A stretch of DNA of 64,000 nucleotides. It comes from Actinomycetota bacterium. GTDB lineage: Bacteria; Actinomycetota; Nitriliruptoria; Nitriliruptorales; JAHWKO01. The notes under the pieces are model-generated. The model did no database searches and had not been told where the DNA came from. It saw only the letters and a list, made by a program, of their open reading frames with translations. The stretch spans positions 62,001 through 126,000 of the forward strand of contig JAHWKW010000002.1 in NCBI GenBank assembly GCA_019347675.1. Direction: 5' to 3'. Below, in pieces: positions 6,388 to 19,279 of the stretch (position 1 is its first letter; every line of letters starts with the position of its first letter). The position numbers and the translations under genes are program-made.

Positions 6388-7265
6388 GCGACCTGCCGCG
6401 ACCGGGTCCCCGCGTCCGCGTGGTTGTGGCCCGCCACGAGGCTGGTCGCCGCCAGGAGCGGGCGGACGTCGTCGCCACCGAGGAACCGCTGGAGATCCGG
6501 CTCACCTCCCGCACGGGGGCGGTGCAGCGGCTCGCAGTGACGATGCGGACACCGGGCGCGGATTTCGAGCTCGCCGTTGGGTTCCTCGTCGGGGAGGGCG
6601 TCATCGCCGGAGGAGACGCCGTCGCGTCGGTCCGGTACTGCGTCGACCGTGGTCTCGACGAGGACCAGCGCTTCAACGTCGTGACGGTCAACCTCGACCG
6701 TCCGGAGCTGCCCGACCTCCGCGGTCTCGAACGGCACTTCACCACGACGAGCGCCTGCGGCGTCTGTGGTCGTAGCTGCCTCGAGTCGCTGGAGACACGC
6801 GGCACGAGTATGGCGGCGCCCGGCCCGGTGATACCTTCCGAGACGCTGACGTCCCTGCCTGGACGGCTGCGTGCGGCGCAGCCCGTCTTCGACCGGACGG
6901 GAGGACTGCACGCGGCGGCGTTGTTCACCGCCGCCGGTGAGCTCGTTGCGGTCCGTGAGGACGTGGGCCGGCACAACGCCATGGACAAGCTCGTCGGCTG
7001 GGCGGCGTTCCAAAAGCGCCTACCGCTTGAAGGTCACCTCGTGCTCGTCTCCGGGCGGGCGAGCTACGAGCTCGTGCAGAAAGCCGCGACGGCGGGCGTA
7101 CCGGTGCTGGCAGCGATCTCCGCTCCGAGCAGCCTCGCCATCGAGATCGCCGAGAGGTTCGGTCTCACCCTCGTTGGCTTCCTCCGCGACGATCGCTTCA
7201 ACGTCTACTCGGGCGAGGATCGCATCGGCCCGGCGCAGTCGCTGTCACGTCGGGCCGCCACCTGA
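6384..7265 (+). CDS. fdhD: Formate dehydrogenase sulfurtransferase FdhD
   Basis: FdhD carries sulfur from a cysteine desulfurase to the molybdenum cofactor of formate dehydrogenase and is needed for its activity. The 293 residues fit. Seen: ATEEPLEIRLTSR near the N terminus, TPGADFELAVGFLVGEGVI, the active CxxC in TTSACGVCGRSC, and the C-terminal DVGRHNAMDKLVG and LVSGRASYELVQKAA blocks. It starts inside the stop of the mobA remnant (ATGA). It runs toward the fdhA-moaC operon and its last 61 bases overlap the end of moaC on the other strand. Confidence 0.96.
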   Translation: MSDLPRPGPRVRVVVARHEAGRRQERADVVATEEPLEIRLTSRTGAVQRLAVTMRTPGADFELAVGFLVGEGVIAGGDAVASVRYCVDRGLDEDQRFNVVTVNLDRPELPDLRGLERHFTTTSACGVCGRSCLESLETRGTSMAAPGPVIPSETLTSLPGRLRAAQPVFDRTGGLHAAALFTAAGELVAVREDVGRHNAMDKLVGWAAFQKRLPLEGHLVLVSGRASYELVQKAATAGVPVLAAISAPSSLAIEIAERFGLTLVGFLRDDRFNVYSGEDRIGPAQSLSRRAAT

Positions 7266-7777
7266 CGGGCCGGCTCGCCGACGGCCGATCGGTCGTGGGT
7301 GTGATCCTCGTGCCAGTCGCCGCTCGCACCGCCGGTCTTGTCGACCAGACGGAGGTCGGTGATGCGCACGCCGCTTTCGACGGACTTCACCATGTCGTAG
7401 ACGGTGAGCGCCGCAACCGCGGCGGCGGTGAGCGCCTCCATCTCCACCCCTGTGCGGTCGGTGGCGTGAGCGTCGGCGACGATGTCGACGGTGCCAGCGT
7501 CGGGTTCCACGTCCACGTCGATGTGAACATGGGTGAGGGAGACGGCGTGACAGAGGGGGATGAGGTCGGACGTGCGCTTGGCCGCCTGGATCCCGGCGAT
7601 GCGGGCGATGGCAACGACGTCGCCCTTCGGTAGGCGCCCGTCGGCGATGAGACGGACGGTCGCCGGCGAGCACGCGACGCGGCACGCCGCTCGGGCGGTG
7701 CGGTGGGTGATGTCCTTGGCGCCGACGTCGACCATGCGCGCCTGGCCGGCGTCGTCCAGGTGCGACGGTCGGGTCAT
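7205..7777 (-). CDS. moaC: Cyclic pyranopterin monophosphate synthase
   Basis: With MoaA it converts GTP to cyclic pyranopterin monophosphate, the first step of molybdenum-cofactor synthesis. The start MTRPSHLDD at 7777 overlaps the moeA stop as TGATG. Seen: MVDVGAKDITHRTARA at the N terminus, KRTSDLIPLCHAVSLTHV and GVEMEALTAAAVAALTVYDM with KSVESGVRITDLRLVDKTGG, all family hallmarks. After residue about 156 it has an extra basic tail of about 30 residues that lies antisense to the end of fdhD; the tail is not part of the normal family and may be dispensable. Confidence 0.95.
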   Translation of the reverse strand: MTRPSHLDDAGQARMVDVGAKDITHRTARAACRVACSPATVRLIADGRLPKGDVVAIARIAGIQAAKRTSDLIPLCHAVSLTHVHIDVDVEPDAGTVDIVADAHATDRTGVEMEALTAAAVAALTVYDMVKSVESGVRITDLRLVDKTGGASGDWHEDHTHDRSAVGEPARQVAARRDSDCAGPMRSSPE

Positions 7778-9039
7778 CACTGGTCCGACAGCAGGTGCAC
7801 GCGGACGGCTTCCCCCTCGGCGATCCTCGGACGGTCCGCGGGTACCTCCGCCAGAGCGTCCGCGTCGGCCAGAGCTCTCAGCATGTGCGAACCCTGGCCG
7901 CCACACGGCTCGGCTTCCAGGCCGGATGAGGTCTCCCGCAGGCGGACACGCAAGAAGGTGCGTCGCCGCGCGGAGCCGCGCAGATCGCGGGCCGCGGTGG
8001 CCCACAGAGACGGGCGGGCCAGCTGCCTCCTGCCGTGCAGGGTCCGTAGGATCGGGACCGCGAACATCTCGAAGGAGACGAACGCCGACACGGGATTGCC
8101 GGGCAGGCCGAGGACGGTGGTGGTGCCGATGCGCGCGTGCACCTGGGGCTTGCCGGGTTTCATGGCGAGCTTCGCCGTGCGTGTCTGCCCCAGCGAGGCG
8201 AGCGCCTCCGGCAGGTGGTCGTAGCGCCCGGCGCTCACGCCACCGGTGACGAGCACGAGGTCGGCGCTGGCCGCAGCCTCGGACAGCGCGTCGCGGAGGA
8301 CCGCGGGGTCGTCGGCGATCGGGCCCCGGGCGTGAGCGTGTGCGTCCTCCCCCGTCGCGCAGGCGACGAGCATCGGACCGTTCGAGTCGTACAGCTGCCC
8401 CGGCCCGAGGGCCCGTCCGGTTGGCACGACCTCATCGCCGGTTGACAGCACGACCACCCGCGCGCGGCGGTGGCAGTCCACGGTCACCGCACCGACCGCC
8501 GCGAGCAGCGCGAGGATCCGTGCGTTGACGCGCGTACCCGCGACGACGACGACCTGGCCCGCGCGGACGTCCTCGCCGATCCCGCGGACGTGCTCGCCCG
8601 TCCGTGGTGCCCGGTGGATGAACACGGTGCCGTCCCGCTCGGTGGTCACCTCCACGGGGATCACCGTGTCGGCGCCACCAGGCACGGGTGCGCCAGTCAT
8701 GATGCGCAGGGCCGTGCCCGCCCGGAGCTCGGGGAGGTGGGGTGAGCCGGCGGCGATCTCACCGGCGACGTCGAGCGCGACGGGATGCTCCCCGGAGGCG
8801 GTGTCGACGTCGGCTGCACGGACCGCGTAGCCGTCCATCGCCGCGTTCGGGAAGCCGGGCAGGTCCACACCGGCTGCGACGTCGCGGGCGAGGGTGCGGC
8901 CGATCGCGTCGTGGACGGGGACGGGTTCGACCGGCAACGGCGCGACCCCCGTCAGGACGTGGTCGCGGTAGGCCTCGAGCGGTTCCGGCTCGCCGACCTC
9001 GGTCACCGTCGTGCGCGCCAAGCCTCGGAAGGGGGACAC
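7777..9039 (-). CDS. moeA: Molybdopterin molybdenumtransferase
   Basis: Inserts molybdate into adenylylated molybdopterin to give the active cofactor. The 420 residues have the four-domain MoeA layout. Seen: GRTLARDVAAGVDLPGF and NAAMDGYAVRAADV at residues about 47-75, MTGAPVPGGADTVIPVE, STGDEVVPTGRALGPGQLYDSNG, TGGVSAGRYDHL, MKPGKPQVHARIGTTTVLGLPGNPVS. It sits 9 bp after moaA and overlaps moaC. MogA, which prepares its substrate, is in the same run. Confidence 0.96.
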   Translation of the reverse strand: MSPFRGLARTTVTEVGEPEPLEAYRDHVLTGVAPLPVEPVPVHDAIGRTLARDVAAGVDLPGFPNAAMDGYAVRAADVDTASGEHPVALDVAGEIAAGSPHLPELRAGTALRIMTGAPVPGGADTVIPVEVTTERDGTVFIHRAPRTGEHVRGIGEDVRAGQVVVVAGTRVNARILALLAAVGAVTVDCHRRARVVVLSTGDEVVPTGRALGPGQLYDSNGPMLVACATGEDAHAHARGPIADDPAVLRDALSEAAASADLVLVTGGVSAGRYDHLPEALASLGQTRTAKLAMKPGKPQVHARIGTTTVLGLPGNPVSAFVSFEMFAVPILRTLHGRRQLARPSLWATAARDLRGSARRRTFLRVRLRETSSGLEAEPCGGQGSHMLRALADADALAEVPADRPRIAEGEAVRVHLLSDQ

Positions 9040-10087: not shown

Positions 10088-11275
10088 CTACGCGCCGGTC
10101 CGGGCGGTCGGCAGCGCAGGTGCCGTCGGCGCCAGCACGCGCGGGGCGTGCGCGAGGACGAGCGCCACCGCGGTGGCGACGGCGAGGTTGCCGGTGGCCA
10201 GCCCGATGCCGCCAGCCACGAGGGCATGGGTCAAGTCGCGTCCCCGGAGGTCGGCGACGAGGAGCGCGTGGCGCAGGCCGGCGTAGGCGAGGAACCCACC
10301 GAGCGCCCAGACCGGCAGGGCCCCGAACAACGCGAGCACCTGTCGGGGGAGGGTGATGCCGACGACGAGGAGAGTTGCGCCTAGCACGACGTTCATACCG
10401 GCGTTGCGCGCACCGAGCCGCACGTGCGCCGTGAAGCCGCTCGAGCCGTGGCACATCGGCATCCCGCCGAGGAAGGCCGAGCCGACGTTCGCCAATCCGG
10501 CGGAGATCGCGACGCGCGACGGCGTCACCCGACCGGCGCGGTCGCCGAAGTGCTCGCGGGCGAGGTCACTCACCCCGACGACGGCGTTGCCGAACGTCAG
10601 CGGGAGCTGCGGCACGACGAGGAGCGCGAACGCCGCCGGGAGCGCCCCAAGGTCCGGCATCGCCGGCACCGGAATCGACGGCGAGATCACACCGAGCTGC
10701 GGTGCGGCGGCCGCCACCGAGACGACCGTGCCGACGGCGACGCCGGCGACCCCGGTCCCGTACCAACGGCGCCACGCGACCACCGCGACGACCGTCGTGG
10801 CGACGACGAGCAACCAGAGGCCCCGCGCGGGCGGCGGCGGCCTGGTGAACACCGGCGGCGGAGCCGCGACGAGCCGCAGCGCCGACAGCACCAGCAGGCC
10901 TCCCACCCCCAACTGCAGCGAGCGGATCACGGGCTTGGTGAACCACGCGGCAAGCCGTGGGGTCCACCCGGTCGCCGTCAGCAGCAGCAGGCAGACCCCG
11001 ACGAGCAGCCCGCCGGCGTGCACGAGATCGGCGGACAGGCCCTGACCAACGGCGATGGCGGTGAGCGCCTTCAGGGGCTGAACCGGCCACGGCAGCCGGA
11101 AGCGGAGTCCCGACAGGATCACAAGGAGCCCTGCTGCGACGAGCACCGGTCCGGGGCGCAGGCCGTTCACGACGATGAGGGCGGCGCTGAGCGGGACGAA
11201 CACCCCGAGATCGGCGACCGCGCCGGACAGGTCACCGACCGTGGGTCGCACGGACCTGCCGACGGTGGGCGTCAT
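10088..11275 (-). CDS. MOT1-type molybdate transporter
   Basis: Multi-pass membrane protein of about 395 residues with the GDLSGAVADLGVFVPL opening and a LPWPVQPLKALTAIAVGQGL segment that mark the MOT1 family, relatives of SulP sulfate carriers that take up molybdate. It has roughly ten hydrophobic segments. Sitting inside the cofactor operon (start overlapping the moaDE stop by four bases) supports molybdate as substrate; sulfate cannot be excluded. No modABC genes are in the window. Confidence 0.85.
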   Translation of the reverse strand: MTPTVGRSVRPTVGDLSGAVADLGVFVPLSAALIVVNGLRPGPVLVAAGLLVILSGLRFRLPWPVQPLKALTAIAVGQGLSADLVHAGGLLVGVCLLLLTATGWTPRLAAWFTKPVIRSLQLGVGGLLVLSALRLVAAPPPVFTRPPPPARGLWLLVVATTVVAVVAWRRWYGTGVAGVAVGTVVSVAAAAPQLGVISPSIPVPAMPDLGALPAAFALLVVPQLPLTFGNAVVGVSDLAREHFGDRAGRVTPSRVAISAGLANVGSAFLGGMPMCHGSSGFTAHVRLGARNAGMNVVLGATLLVVGITLPRQVLALFGALPVWALGGFLAYAGLRHALLVADLRGRDLTHALVAGGIGLATGNLAVATAVALVLAHAPRVLAPTAPALPTARTGA

Positions 11276-11961
11276 CGTTGCTCGTCGTCGACGCCGACCC
11301 ACCGTGCGCCGTCGGCGGCGACCTCACGCTTCCAGACGGGGACGCGGTCCTTCACCGCCTCGAGCGCGTACCGGCATGCCTGGAAGGCCTCCTGGCGGTG
11401 CGGAGCCGAGCAGGCGACCGCGACGGTGTGGGCACCCACCGGCAGGTCACCGACCGCGTGGACCATCGCCACGCCGCGCACGGCCGGCCACCGCTGGATG
11501 ACCTCCTCCGCGATGGTGCGCATCGTCGCCGTCGCCATCTCCCCGTACGAGCTGTACTCGAGGCGCTCCACCGCGGAGAACCACTCCGAGTGGTTACGGA
11601 CGGTCCCGAGGAACAGCACCGTGGCACCGGCCGCATCCGAAGACACGGCCGACAGCACCTCGTCGACGGGCAGGTCCGCGTCGCGGACGTCGACGAGCAC
11701 CCGCGGGTCATCGTCCGCACCACCGGCGACCGGTGGGAGGACCGCGATCTCGTCACCGTCGCTGATCGGGAGCCCGTCGGAGGCGATCTCGAGGTTGACC
11801 GCGACCTGCGACCGCTCCACGATCGCGGCCGCGTCCGGTAGCCGCCGGCTGAGCTTCGCGATGAGCTCGCCGACGGTGACGACGCCTTCGACGTCGATGT
11901 GGAGCTCGCGGGCGCCGGCGCGCTCCGCGAGAGCCCCGAACAGCCGCACCCGCAGTGTCAC
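11272..11961 (-). CDS. Molybdopterin synthase, MoaD-MoaE fusion
   Basis: Both subunits of molybdopterin synthase in one 229-residue chain. Residues 1-81 are the ubiquitin-like MoaD, ending LPPVAGG at 75-81; residues from about 87 on are MoaE, with LGTVRNHSEW, VHAVGDLPVGAHTV and CSAPHRQEAFQACRYALEAVKDRVPVWKRE holding the family active-site lysines. Free MoaD must end in Gly-Gly to be thiocarboxylated, so here the pair is internal. The M. tuberculosis homologue MoaX is known to be cleaved after this glycine, and I infer the same. Overlaps mogA upstream and the transporter downstream by four bases each. Confidence 0.93.
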   Translation of the reverse strand: MTLRVRLFGALAERAGARELHIDVEGVVTVGELIAKLSRRLPDAAAIVERSQVAVNLEIASDGLPISDGDEIAVLPPVAGGADDDPRVLVDVRDADLPVDEVLSAVSSDAAGATVLFLGTVRNHSEWFSAVERLEYSSYGEMATATMRTIAEEVIQRWPAVRGVAMVHAVGDLPVGAHTVAVACSAPHRQEAFQACRYALEAVKDRVPVWKREVAADGARWVGVDDEQR

Positions 11962-12477: not shown

Positions 12478-13653
12478 TCAGCGTGTCGGCTCGGGCAGTG
12501 CGCGGCGGTTGCCGGCGCCGACGACCGCGGGACGGTCGGTGACCTGGGCGGCGCCGTGCCCGGCGCGCTGGTGGCGGAACGTCGCCCGCGGATCGCGGGC
12601 GGAGCGTGTCCCGGCGTGGAAGACGGCGAACCGCAGGCTCACCGTTCCCATCGTTCCCGCCACCCCCGCCACCGCACGGTTGAGGCGCGACGAGCCCGGC
12701 AGCAAGCGCAGCGCGAGGCTCGTCGCGGTCGCTGCCTTCGCCAGGCGCCACATCGCCCCTGATGCGCCGTCGTGGTACGGCTCCCCCACCTGCTCCCGAT
12801 CGGCCTGCTTCTCGACGAACTTCCCGAGCAGCAACTCACCGAGCGCGCCGACGATACCGAAGTTGCGGACGACACGGCTCTCCTCATCGTTGAGGTCCAT
12901 CAGATCCAAGGCGGATGCCGCGGCGAGCACCGCCGAGGCCATGAACAGCGGCGGGAGGCTGCGGCGCGCGCACTGCCAGGCGGGTACCGCGGTGTTCGCG
13001 ACGAGCACGCCCGTGTAGCCCGCGAGTGGCGGACCCAGCAGCCCCGCCCCGATGGTCGTGCCATCCTCGACGAGACCGAATATCCGCCGCGAACCGTGGC
13101 CGTCGAGCCGCGAGCGCAGCAACCGTGCGGCGACGGCCGCCGAGCCCAGCCCGGCGCTGGCAGCCAGCACCCACGATCCGACGCTCATCGGTGACGTCGG
13201 CCGGAAGACACGGAGCATGTTCAGGAAGCGCTTCGGGCGTCCGAGGTCCTCGATGAGCAGGCCCGTGCCGACCGTCGTCCCGAGTGCGGCCATCCACCGG
13301 CAGCGGTCCACCAGACCGACGAGCTCATCGTCGGAGCGTGCCACCGCGGCCAGCAGCGCCGCCGCGCCGGCCAGGCCCCCGACGTAGAAGTACGCCGGCA
13401 CCGACCAGATCCACACCGGCTCCTTCAGCACCGGTCGGTCGAAGTAGGTGACGTCACCGGTTGCGGCAGCCCGACCGTCGGCCGACGGCTTGCGATGCCA
13501 GACGTCGTAGGGCGACGGGCCGGCGAGCTCGTCACCGTGGGCACGGGTCCCGGGCTCGATCCGCATCCGAGAGCCGACACCTTCGAGTACGCCGACCTGC
13601 GGATCGATGTCCCGACGCTGGCCCGTCGTGCCGACCGGTCCGTCGCTGGTCAC
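12478..13653 (-). CDS. NrfD/PsrC-like membrane subunit of formate dehydrogenase
   Basis: Integral membrane protein of 391 residues, likely the quinone-reactive subunit that takes electrons from FdhB. After an about 80-residue hydrophilic lead the KEPVWIWSVPAYFYVGGLAGA segment begins, typical of NrfD/PsrC proteins, followed by about eight membrane helices, including LGRPKRFLNMLRVFRPTSPMS, another family mark. The start overlaps the fdhB stop (ATGA). It replaces the cytochrome b gamma subunit of E. coli FDH-N. Direction of electron flow is inferred. Confidence 0.88.
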   Translation of the reverse strand: MTSDGPVGTTGQRRDIDPQVGVLEGVGSRMRIEPGTRAHGDELAGPSPYDVWHRKPSADGRAAATGDVTYFDRPVLKEPVWIWSVPAYFYVGGLAGAAALLAAVARSDDELVGLVDRCRWMAALGTTVGTGLLIEDLGRPKRFLNMLRVFRPTSPMSVGSWVLAASAGLGSAAVAARLLRSRLDGHGSRRIFGLVEDGTTIGAGLLGPPLAGYTGVLVANTAVPAWQCARRSLPPLFMASAVLAAASALDLMDLNDEESRVVRNFGIVGALGELLLGKFVEKQADREQVGEPYHDGASGAMWRLAKAATATSLALRLLPGSSRLNRAVAGVAGTMGTVSLRFAVFHAGTRSARDPRATFRHQRAGHGAAQVTDRPAVVGAGNRRALPEPTR

Positions 13654-14441
13654 GACGACCTCCTCGCCGCGAGCACCGCACCGACCGCCGCGGCGAGCAT
13701 GCCGACCGTCCCCGCAGCGACCCCCGCCCAGGACTGGAGCTGCTTCTTCGTGGGCACCACCGGATCCGGTGGGAGGTTGTACACCTCGGGCTCGTCCACG
13801 AGCAGGAAGAAGGCGTTCAGCCCCTCCGTGCCCGGCTGGTTCGCCACGTCGACCCCGTACAGGTACGCCTCGGTCACCCCCCGCCCGTGGAGCGTCTCGA
13901 CGCGTTCTGCAGCGATGACCCGTAGCTCATCGATGTCGCCGTAGATGATCGAGTCGGTGGGACACGCCTTGGAACATGCGGGTTCCATGCCGTCCTGGAG
14001 CCGGTCGTAGCAGAGCGTGCACTTCCAGGCGCGGCCGTCGTCGGGACGACGGTCGACGACCCCGAAGGGGCAGGCCGGGATGCAGTACCCGCAGCCGTTG
14101 CAGACGTCGGGCTGGATGAACACCGAGTCGAACTCCGTGCGCACGATCGCGCCGGTGGGACAGACCTCCAGGCAGCCCGCCCGCTCGCAGTGCTTGCAAA
14201 CGTCCGACATGAGCAGCCACGAGAAGTCGCCGAACCCGGTGGACTGCCCGGACAGCGGCACCGGCCGTTCGACGAACGCGACGTGACGCCAAGTGGTCGC
14301 ACCCAGGTCGAGCGTGTTGTCGTAGCTCATCCCTGTGAAGAAGAAGCCGTCGTCGGGGAGTTGGTTCCACTGCTTGCAGGCGACCTCGCACGCCTTGCAG
14401 CCGATGCAGACGGTGGTGTCGGTGAAGAATCCCGTCGCCAT
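13650..14441 (-). CDS. fdhB: Formate dehydrogenase iron-sulfur subunit
   Basis: Electron-transfer subunit with four [4Fe-4S] clusters between FdhA and the membrane. Seen: CIGCKACEVACKQWNQ at the N terminus, CKHCERAGCLEVCPTGAI, CNGCGYCIPACPFGV and CTLCYDRLQDG with CSKACPTDSI, four cysteine quartets in the order of the DMSO-reductase/FdnH family. Residues about 230-260 form one C-terminal membrane helix (AGVAAGTVGMLAAAVGAVLAA), placing it on the membrane. It lies 42 bp after fdhA and overlaps the NrfD-like gene by four bases. Confidence 0.95.
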   Translation of the reverse strand: MATGFFTDTTVCIGCKACEVACKQWNQLPDDGFFFTGMSYDNTLDLGATTWRHVAFVERPVPLSGQSTGFGDFSWLLMSDVCKHCERAGCLEVCPTGAIVRTEFDSVFIQPDVCNGCGYCIPACPFGVVDRRPDDGRAWKCTLCYDRLQDGMEPACSKACPTDSIIYGDIDELRVIAAERVETLHGRGVTEAYLYGVDVANQPGTEGLNAFFLLVDEPEVYNLPPDPVVPTKKQLQSWAGVAAGTVGMLAAAVGAVLAARRSS

Positions 14442-14482: not shown

Positions 14483-17400
14483 TCAGAAGTCCTCGAACTG
14501 CTGGCTCTGCCCGCTGCGCAGCCCATGGCGGGTCTCGGGCTTGGTGCCGCGCACCGCGTCGGCGTCGCGGCCCTCGCCGGGGTCGGCCCTGGGTCCGCCG
14601 AGGGGACCGGAGGTCGGGGCACGCCGCTTCCTGCTGCGGCGTCCCGGACGGATGTCGCAGGTGAGGGCCTTCGACTCCTGGATGGAGACGTTCGGGTCGG
14701 CGACGAAGCCGATGAGCTCGTTGACGACGTCGCCGGTGACCAGCCCGTGCGTCCCCCAGTGGTAGGGCAGTCCGACCTGGTGTACGACACGGTCTCGGCC
14801 TTTGCCCAACCGCAAGGGCCGGACGCGGTCGGTGACCAGCACGCGGCACTCGATCTCACCGCGTGCCGTGCGGATGGCGGCCCACCCGCCGTTCTCCAAC
14901 CGTCGTTCCAGGGCCAGCTCCGGTGAGACCTCGCAGAACAGCTCCGGCATGAGCTCGCTCAGCCACGCCACCCAGCGGCTCATCGCCCCGGCGGTGTGGT
15001 GCTCGGTGAGCCGGTACGTGGTCAGCACGAACGGGAAGTCGGGGTCGTCGACGTGGCGGTGGTAGGGGTTGTCGCGCCGGTTCCACTCGAGGCGAGCGGG
15101 GTTGGCCTTCTGCGCGTACAGCGGGTTGTCGAAGACGGACTCCTGGGGCTCGTAGTGCGTCGGCAGCGGGCCGTCCAGCAGCCCGGTCGGCACGTAGAGC
15201 CAGCCCTTGCCGTCGCTCTGCATGATGAACGGATCGTTGCCGGCGACCGCGTCCGTGCCGAGCGCCTCCGGGTCGGGGCGGAAGGAGGGCTTGCAGGTGG
15301 CCGGGAAGTCCGGCACGTCCTCGCCGACCCAGCGGCCATCGTGCTCTCCCCACCACACGTAGCGCTTGCGCTCCGACCACGGTCGGCCGTCGACGTCGGC
15401 CGACGCGCGGTTGTAGAGGATGCGGCGGTTGTCGGGCCAGGCCCAGGCCCACTCCGGGGCGACCCAGCTCTGCTCCGAGGCGGGCTTGCGCCGGGCGGTC
15501 TGGTTCACACCGCCGGCGAAGCAGCCCGAGTAGATCCAACAGCCGCAAGCCGTGGACCCGTCAGCCTCCAACGCATCGAAGTCGGGCACCATCTCGCCCG
15601 ACTCGACGACGTAGCCGTTGATCTCTTGGAGCACCGCCTCGGCGTCCGGCTCCGCGTCGTCATGCTCGGTCGGGTACTGCCAGGCCAGGTCGCGGATCGG
15701 GGCGTCCTCGGGGCGCTCCGAGGAGGCGTAGCGCTCCTTCAGCCGCCGGCCGAGGTGGTAGGCGAACCACAGCTCGCTGCGGCAGTCGCCGGGCGGACGG
15801 ATCGCCTGCTCCTTCCACTGCAGCAACCGCTGAGTGTTGGTGAACGTCCCCTGCTTCTCGGTGTGGGCGGCGCACGGGAAGAAGAACACCTCGGTGTCGA
15901 TGTCCTCCGGACGGACCTCCCCCCGGTCGATCTCGGGGGCGACCTTCCAGAACTCCGCCGTCTCCGTCGGCGCGAAGTCCCGCACCACGAGCCACTTCAG
16001 CTCGCGCAGACCCTTGCGGTGCAGCGCCCCGTGCATCGAACCGACCACCGGGTTCTCCCCGACGACGAGGTAGCCCTCGACATCCCCGTCGGCCATCGCG
16101 GCCACCGTGGCCATGTGCGAGTGGTCCCCGCCCATCCGTGGCAGGTGGTCGAAGCACCAGTCGTTCTCCGGCGTCGCCGCGTCGCCGAACCAGGCCTTCA
16201 GCAGCGAGACCGTGTAGCAGTCGAACTTCGCCCACCAGCCCATGCCCGACTGGTTGTGGCCGATGTAGTCATCGAGGGTGCGGTCGTAGGCCGCCTTCGG
16301 CATCGGCAGGTAGCCGGGCAGGATGTTGTACAATGTCGGGATATCCGTCGATCCCTGGATCGACGCGTGGCCCCGCAGCGCGAGGATCCCTCCTCCGGGA
16401 CGTCCGATGTTGCCCAGCAGAAGCTGGAGGATCGAGGCGGTGCGGATGTACTGCACCCCCTTCGAGTGCTGCGTCCATCCCACCGCGTAGCAGAACGCGC
16501 TCGTGCGCTCCCGTCCGGAGTTGTCGCACAGGGCCTCCGCGACCTCCACGAACTGGTCGTCGTCGATGCCGCAGATCTCGGCGACGACCTCCGGGGTGTA
16601 GCGGGCGAAGTGCCGTTTCACGATCTGGAAGACGCAGCGGGGATGTGCGAGGGTCTCGTCGCGTTCCGCCTCGTGGACCCGTTGACCACGCTGGGTCTCC
16701 GGTTCGCCGGCGAAGAGCTCACGCTCCCCCGCGGCCGGTTCGACGCTGATGTCCCCCGCGTACATCCAGGAACTTGGGTCGTACTGACCGCTCCTGGGAT
16801 CCCAGCCGCTGAACAGGCCGTTGAGGTCCTCGGTGTCACGGAACTCATCGGAGACAACCACCGGAGCGTTCGTGTACTCCACCACGTAGTCGCGGAAGAA
16901 CCGTTCGTTGTCGATGACGTACCGAACCAGCCCACCGAGGAAGGCGATGTCGGTCCCGGCACGGATGGGAACGTGCAGGTCGCAGACCGCGCTGGTCCGC
17001 GTGAACCGTGGGTCGACGTGGATGATCGTCGCACCGCGTCGCTTGGCCTCCATCACCCACTGGAACCCGACCGGATGGCACTCGGCCATGTTCGAACCCT
17101 GGATGACGATGCAGTCGCTGTTCTGCAGATCCTGCTGGAAGGTCGTCGCACCGCCCCGACCGAAGGAGGTCCCCAGACCGGGGACCGTGGACGAGTGTCA
17201 TATCCGCGCCTGATTCTCGATCTGCAACGCACCGAGCGCGGTGTAGAGCTTCTTCAGCAGGTAGTTCTCTTCGTTGTCCAGCGTCGCCCCACCGATGTGG
17301 GCGAAACCGAGCGTGCGGCGCAGGGGCGTGCCGTCGGCGTCCTCCCACCGCAGCGTTCGGTCACGGGTGTCCCTGATACGGTCGGCGACCATGTCCATGG

Positions 17401-17770
17401 CGGTGTCGAGGTCGATCTCCTCCCACTCGGTCGCGCCGGGGCGCCGGTACAGCACGGTGTGCACGCGGTGGGCACCCGTGACCAACTGGAAGGTCGCCGC
17501 CCCCTTCGGGCAGAGCTTGCCGAGCGAGATGGGCGAGTCGGGGTCGCCCTCGATGTCGGTGATCCGACCGCCCTGGACGTAGACGACCTGACCGCAACCG
17601 ACCCCGCAGTACGGGCAGATGGTGCGTCTCACCTCATCGGCGTTGCGGGTCCGAGCCACCGTCTGGCGGCCGGACATCGCCGTGGCGCCCAGCCCCAACA
17701 GATCCCGCTGGCGGACCTGGCGCAGCACCGGCCAAGCCAGAACCGTGTCCCGCCAACCCGAAGCGCCCAT
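14483..17770 (-). CDS. fdhA: Formate dehydrogenase alpha subunit with in-frame UGA (selenocysteine)
   Basis: Oxidises formate to CO2 at a molybdenum centre. The gene reads through one in-frame TGA at 17200-17198 (codon 191): upstream ends ALQIENQARI, downstream continues HSSTVPGLG, then NMAECHPVGFQWVMEAKRR. This is exactly where the family has selenocysteine or cysteine, so I read 1095 residues with Sec191. The N-terminal cluster is CPYCGVGC with a fourth cysteine in LGKLCPKG (residues 52-87). I see no twin-arginine signal, and the N terminus (SGWRDTVLAWPVLRQVRQRD) fits actinobacterial homologues as I recall them, so the site probably faces the cytoplasm. A SECIS-like hairpin follows the UGA. 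It heads the nine-gene operon. Confidence 0.93.
17168..17200 (-). promoter_or_regulatory. fdhA: Bacterial SECIS-like hairpin after the fdhA UGA
   Basis: The mRNA reads UGA, eleven bases, then GGUCCCCGGUCUGGGGACC, a perfect 7-bp stem with loop GGUCU. Counting U of UGA as 1, the loop G23 and U24 and the stem U17 fall on the same numbers as in the E. coli fdhF element, where these bases contact SelB; E. coli also has GGUCU there. In E. coli U17 is bulged, here it can pair. The codons of the loop encode Gly-Leu as in E. coli FdhF. Recalled from knowledge, not searched. Confidence 0.85.
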
Positions 17771-18184: not shown

Positions 18185-19279
18185 TCAACAAGTGGTGATG
18201 TTGACGCGATGCCAGGAGTTGTTGACGTAACCCTTGAAGTTCCATACTGACGTCGGATGTTCCGGCTGGGTCTTGCCAGCCGCGTCCATGGCACGGACCG
18301 AGATCTCTTGGTTACCCGGGGACAGGTCGCGGTCGCCACCCCACAGCGTCCAACCCCACGTACCCGACCGGTGGAGCCGCGACGCCTCGCTCCAGGTGCG
18401 GCCACCGTCGCTGGTCAACTCCACCCGCTCGACCCGCCGCCCTCCGCCTGCCACGGCATAGCCTTCGCACCGCATCGGGCCGGCTGGCGCGCGATCGCCG
18501 TCGGCGGGGCGGCAGATCACCGAGTTGATCGCCAGCTCGCCCAACACCGTGCCGTGCTCCCAACGCACGGTGGCGCCCGTGACTTCGGGAGGAAACAGGC
18601 GGTAGGCGCGTTGCTGGAAGTGGTTGGTCGACGGCTCCGCGCACGCCTCGACCCCGGCGAGCCATTTGACGCTGCGGGCTCCGATGTATCCGGGGACCAC
18701 GAGGCGCAGGGGGAAACCGTGCACCGGCGGAAGCGGTTCGCCGTTCATGCGATCGACGACGAGAACCTCGTCTCGCAGGGCCTTTTCAAGGGGGATCGAA
18801 CCCCCGAAGTGTTCGACCCGCCCATGTGCGTGGCGAACGAAGTCCAGTCCGGTGAGGGCCACGTGTCTCACATCGGCGGACAGCTCGGCGGCCGCGAGCA
18901 GGTCACGCAGGCGCCAACCCGACCAGCGCACGTTGGCGATGGCGTCGGGTCCCCAGGGGATCTCCAGCGGGATGTCCGCGAGCTGCATCAGCTCCCGCCG
19001 CCGGTTGCCGGCGCAGGAGAGCGCCGCGACCAGCTCCACCCGTTCGAAACGATCGGCGAGGATATCCAGAGACAGCTCCAGCGGCCGCCGTACCAATCCG
19101 CGCACCTGCAGGCGGTGTCTGTCAGCGTCGACGTGTGGGACCGCAGCGTGGTTGCGTACGTACACCATCGGGGTCGGGGTGATGAGATGGTCCGCGAGCC
19201 GGCCCAGTGGTGCGCCGACGTTGAGGGGGGTCTGCTGGTAGGCGGTAAGGTCCGGGGCCTTGCCGGCCGGCAAGCGCAT
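18185..19279 (-). CDS. Sulfite-oxidase-family molybdoenzyme
   Basis: A 364-residue oxidoreductase with the sulfite-oxidase molybdopterin fold (residues about 35-235) and a C-terminal Mo-co dimerisation domain (about 240-360). Seen: AALSCAGNRR with the molybdenum-ligating cysteine at 89, GGSIPLEKAL, MNGEPLPPVHGFPLR and VVPGYIGARSVKWL, all hallmarks, then VERVELTSDGGRTWSEA in the dimer domain. There is no export signal, so it should act in the cytoplasm, unlike typical SorA or YedY. ATG at 19279 is preceded by GGGAGAG. Needs molybdopterin from the neighbouring operon; substrate unproven. Confidence 0.9.
   Translation of the reverse strand: MRLPAGKAPDLTAYQQTPLNVGAPLGRLADHLITPTPMVYVRNHAAVPHVDADRHRLQVRGLVRRPLELSLDILADRFERVELVAALSCAGNRRRELMQLADIPLEIPWGPDAIANVRWSGWRLRDLLAAAELSADVRHVALTGLDFVRHAHGRVEHFGGSIPLEKALRDEVLVVDRMNGEPLPPVHGFPLRLVVPGYIGARSVKWLAGVEACAEPSTNHFQQRAYRLFPPEVTGATVRWEHGTVLGELAINSVICRPADGDRAPAGPMRCEGYAVAGGGRRVERVELTSDGGRTWSEASRLHRSGTWGWTLWGGDRDLSPGNQEISVRAMDAAGKTQPEHPTSVWNFKGYVNNSWHRVNITTC

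Follow-up and report, generated by a model that had tools for sequence, protein, structure and literature searches.

A predicted selenocysteine-containing formate dehydrogenase and its SECIS hairpin in an actinobacterial genome

The DNA analysed here, an actinobacterial stretch of 64,000 nucleotides (hereafter the window), carries a gene, fdhA, which almost certainly encodes a genuine selenocysteine (Sec) formate dehydrogenase, with an in-frame UGA predicted to be recoded via a downstream SECIS hairpin and SelB. This reading is supported by the membership of the protein in a known family, the presence of Sec machinery in the genome, a hairpin that covaries among relatives and Cys orthologues that lack this hairpin. 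Sec-containing formate dehydrogenases (FDHs) with such signals are already known from many actinobacteria, and the window gene is ordinary in kind. Thus, Actinomycetospora chiangmaiensis has three Sec-FDHs and its removal of formate is selenium-dependent (PMC7176365), with SECIS elements having been predicted by the authors in the Sec-FDHs of strain DSM 45062 (PMC7176365). Likewise, Corynebacterium aurimucosum possesses an fdnG gene with an internal UGA, along with selABD and selC genes (PMC2830990). The present analysis resolves how this gene, which automatic ORF calling splits, should be annotated and points to an organism that decodes Sec. The alignment of the family also provides a compact natural data set, comprising Sec-UGA, Sec-UAG and Cys orthologues and a paired U17, on what SelB needs of a SECIS element outside E. 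coli.

The fdhA gene, its product and its neighbourhood

On the minus strand the TGA lies inside one coding sequence (Table 1), which shows no further internal stop when this codon is translated as Sec. The start at ATG 17770 is plausible, with a comparison of N-termini placing the starts of the relatives at a similar position, and the true stop is the TGA at 14485-14483. Without read-through, ORF calling yields two minus-strand ORFs, 17770-17198 and 17089-14483, just as the original prediction had anticipated for automatic annotation. Its further claim that these two open frames constitute one FdhA is borne out by the single frame of 1,095 residues, which scores 1836.6 bits with NF041513 (NCBIfam formate_DH_Act, actinobacterial formate dehydrogenase), for which the cut-off is 1400. 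The match extends over almost the full model, and sequence divergence is the sole difference from that family. The protein is a full-length FDH alpha subunit with Fe4S4, molybdopterin and molybdopterin-dinucleotide domains and the Fe4S4 motif. It aligns with solved structures bearing the name selenocysteine-containing formate dehydrogenase (best E 3e-219), and its identity to the nearest relatives found is about 70-74%, the nearest named one coming from a Nitriliruptoraceae MAG (L054); this points to Nitriliruptorales or a group close to it as the probable origin of the window. The UGA occupies the active-site position where known enzymes have Sec or Cys, as had been proposed: IENQARI-U-HSSTVPGLG of the window aligns with IEHQARI-X-HSPTVPALA at the Sec site of 6sdr. 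Relatives also encode second, more distant FDH alpha subunits (L046, L047 and L048), which are 44% identical and have an in-frame TGA; a search of these three for the site motif used gave no match.

Table 1. Features of the fdhA locus, in window coordinates
Feature	Position	Strand	Basis
fdhA, Sec-containing formate dehydrogenase alpha subunit (predicted)	14483..17770	-	1095 aa, Sec191; read-through translation, NF041513, relatives' N-termini, solved Sec-FDHs
In-frame UGA, predicted Sec codon	17198..17200	-	codon common to 100/106 loci; aligns with Sec site of 6sdr
SECIS hairpin (predicted) GGUCCCC-GGUCU-GGGGACC, nucleotides 15-33 from UGA	17168..17186	-	folds, covariation, synonymous test, Rfam SECIS_3
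fdhB, 4Fe-4S beta subunit	13650..14441	-	Fer4_11; FDH-beta model, under that model's cut-off
fdhC-like NrfD membrane subunit	12478..13653	-	PF03916, 57.6 bits
MoaD-MoaE fusion (molybdopterin synthase)	11272..11961	-	PF02597 + PF02391
Molybdate transporter, MFS_MOT1 family	10088..11302	-	PF16983, 118.7 bits
moaA	9049..10227	-	TIGR02666, 378.5 bits, over cut-off
moeA	7777..9039	-	PF03453, PF00994, PF03454
moaC	7205..8005	-	TIGR00581, 186 bits, over cut-off

The genes from fdhB through moaC all lie downstream of fdhA on the same strand, the listed moaC ORF being probably extended at its start. This context suits a molybdenum formate dehydrogenase that would pass electrons to a membrane subunit; we infer the direction (formate oxidation) and the acceptor (a quinone), as we do Sec insertion itself. 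Upstream of fdhA there is a molybdoenzyme of the sulfite oxidase family (18185-19279, minus strand; PF00174 and PF03404), for which the best NCBIfam model is SorA, with a score below its cut-off.

The hairpin downstream of the UGA

The fold check proposed along with the original prediction recovers a hairpin with a 7-bp stem (Table 1): the RNA of 17187-17168 has a predicted energy of -13.9 kcal/mol, with one in 200 dinucleotide shuffles being equally stable. The stability of a 49-nt stretch around the hairpin is unexceptional (z -0.74), which is not significant for GC-rich DNA, and the window is 72% GC. Fold energy alone is therefore weak evidence, and we used comparative evidence. On resampling synonymous codons of the window gene, 7 bp together with G23-U24 (counting the U of the UGA as 1) arose in 1.6% of the draws, and 0.8% of them folded with equal or greater stability. 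The Rfam model SECIS_3 (RF01989) scores the hairpin at 31.3 bits (E 1.2e-5 in a 161-base search), which falls short of the gathering score of 63 for this E. coli-type element, and a scan of the whole window with Rfam at gathering thresholds gave zero matches.

We drew sites from 106 loci, including the window gene (L024), of which 66 are distinct over the first 36 bases; these sequences are related, and the shuffle and conservation counts given below do not represent independent events. G16, U17, G23, U24 and U26 are invariant in all 66. The only pairs conserved among the relatives are those from 16-32 to 21-27, which define a core of 16-21/27-32 with the loop R22 G23 U24 Y25 U26. Two of them, 18-30 and 21-27, each formed by third codon bases, covary: the former is C-G, U-A, G-C or U-G in 65 of the 66 sites (shuffle mean 46, maximum 55 in 10,000), and the latter C-G or G-C in every one (shuffle maximum 64). 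The 7-bp stem was rejected as a conserved unit, with the outer pair 15-33 (G15-C33 here) being paired in 37/66, within the range of the shuffles. Hence, the perfect 7-bp stem with a GGUCU loop that had been described does fold so in the window gene, but its outermost pair is not shared across the family. When each gene was resampled synonymously according to its own codon usage, the six-pair stem with G23-U24 was predicted in 1.0 of 65 genes, as against 64 of 65 observed. Moreover, the third codon base U24 is always T, a base seen at only about 9% of the comparable Gly and Ser codons of the same genes. The family-wide hairpin signal is far beyond chance.

A natural control is offered by Cys orthologues (L137-L140), found in four genomes that belong to a single genus of this phylum, in which a Cys codon (TGY) takes the place of the Sec codon. 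In these, nucleotide 24 is either G or C and the stem has lost several of its pairs, indicating that the hairpin and U24 track the Sec codon and not the protein family.

Pairing of U17 and its possible implications for SelB

The positions of U17, G23 and U24 had been likened to those in E. coli fdhF; this register is confirmed and holds for fdnG as well, with the upper stem being similarly placed in the fdhF and fdnG/fdoG elements. The loop RGUCU is also common to the window-type hairpin and E. coli fdnG. The stem in the window is much more stable than the E. coli SECIS elements (-13.9 versus -4.2 to -4.5 kcal/mol). Further, unlike in fdnG/fdoG, which have C31 and a bulged U17, A31 here pairs with U17 in the predicted fold to give a continuous stem, in keeping with the original prediction. 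According to a review (PMC8659212), the U17 bulge is required in the E. coli SECIS; hence, what holds for E. coli does not apply here in every detail.

U17 is paired in all 66 distinct relatives, with A31 in 64 and G31 in two, and the Rfam SECIS_3 model is forced to treat A31 as an insertion. Additionally, both selD hairpins of this genome share a GGU loop and have no U at the equivalent place. These features raise the possibility, which we hold only tentatively, that actinobacterial and myxobacterial SECIS elements are a distinct subclass that SelB reads without a flipped U17, a refinement compatible with the recoding of fdhA via its hairpin. However, both bases are fixed by codons, with U17 in second position of a Val codon and A31 in first position of a Thr or Ile codon, and both persist in the Cys orthologues; the pair is thus no evidence of selection at the RNA level and may be a by-product of coding, and SelB could still flip U17 out. 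Moreover, the general bacterial SECIS model (Zhang and Gladyshev 2005), in the form in which PMC13188914 gives it, comprises a loop of 3-9 nt with G in the first two places and the pattern N1-G-[G/U]-N-N2, and a stem of 4-16 bp located 16-37 nt from the UGA with an energy below -7.5 kcal/mol; the model as given there includes no requirement for a U17 bulge. The hairpin, which lies 18 nt from the UGA, agrees with this formulation on every count; its shape, though lacking the bulge, is therefore one of the variants that the known range takes in, and hardly a new class. The earlier suggestion that SelB of this organism may read a slightly different shape draws on the paired U17, and with codons fixing the bases and the published model, as cited, needing no bulge, it stands as no more than a possibility.

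Sec machinery, alternative readings of the UGA and selD

The genome (3.49 Mb in 76 contigs, 96.7% complete) encodes adjacent selA (499 bits) and selB (251 bits) genes on contig 16, a tRNA-Sec with the anticodon UCA on contig 10 (77.2 bits) and two selD genes on contigs 43 and 37, all over their respective cut-offs. The encoded SelB can be aligned almost from end to end with E. coli SelB (5lzb), and a further match, of its C-terminal winged-helix region, is to SelB 4zu9. The Sec-decoding trait is thus complete, and the absence of selB or tRNA-Sec, which would have spoken against the original prediction, does not occur. Across the class, selA is present in 20 of the 23 genomes carrying this FDH, the three without it being 59, 71 and 78% complete. 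The combination of an actinobacterial Sec FdhA with FdhB, FdhC, SelA and SelB is like that of A. chiangmaiensis DSM 45062 (PMC7176365), a different organism, in which selA-selB lie within the FDH1 cluster, unlike here, where they are on another contig.

The assignment of residue 191 as Sec is itself a prediction, and the UGA might instead be decoded as a near-cognate codon by a tRNA for Trp, Cys or Arg, with the hairpin being incidental. We consider this highly improbable because the genome has selA, selB, tRNA-Sec and selD, and because the hairpin covaries and is absent from the Cys orthologues. Even less credible is a sequencing error or nonsense mutation leaving a pseudogene or two proteins, as the splitting of the gene by automatic ORF calling might suggest, since the protein is conserved both before and after the codon, which is UGA (100 loci) or UAG (six) at the identical place in 106 loci from several phyla. 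The six loci with UAG at the fdhA site (L080, L086, L103, L118, L125 and L131) come from Geodermatophilus, Blastococcus and Modestobacter and have the same hairpin; UAG as a Sec codon in Geodermatophilaceae has already been reported (PMC5330540).

Under the Sec reading, FdhA would be a formate dehydrogenase of the molybdenum (or tungsten) bis-MGD type, in which Sec191 is the active-site residue. With the ribosome at the UGA (17200-17198), SelB carrying Sec-tRNA(UCA) would bind the downstream hairpin via its apical loop (G23, U24) and deliver Sec in place of release by RF2. The full-length FdhA would pair with the Fe-S subunit FdhB and the NrfD-like membrane subunit, and the products of the neighbouring genes would synthesize the molybdenum cofactor and take up molybdate.

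The two selD genes, L018 (contig 43) and L019 (contig 37), are 59% identical, and in each an in-frame UGA marks the Sec position and a hairpin with a GGU loop follows it. In tetranucleotide make-up contigs 43 and 37 correlate with the window at r 0.977 and 0.995, respectively, as against 0.978-0.982 for relatives of the same class, and contig 43 may be contamination. An Rfam scan of the selD contigs at gathering thresholds gave zero matches. Across the class, selD genes with UGA form a stem of 6-8 pairs that closes a GGUNN loop at +36 to +40; the Cys forms all lack the GGU loop, and in most of them the stem is disrupted. The stem does survive in two Cys forms, with 7 pairs in L141 and 5 in L145, and here the loop is CGUCC; for selD the loop is therefore a better marker than the stem. 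The selD hairpin is 14 nt further from the UGA than that of fdhA, with the G-U at +37/38 versus +23/24 (L018, L019, L142, L148-L150 and other UGA selD loci), and a single SelB apparently works with both spacings within the one genome. It is conceivable, though we would lean against it at present, that actinobacterial and myxobacterial SelB recognizes a G-U apical loop on a continuous stem, with the bulged U being dispensable and the same SelB handling two spacings in a single genome, +23/24 in fdhA and +37/38 in both selD genes.
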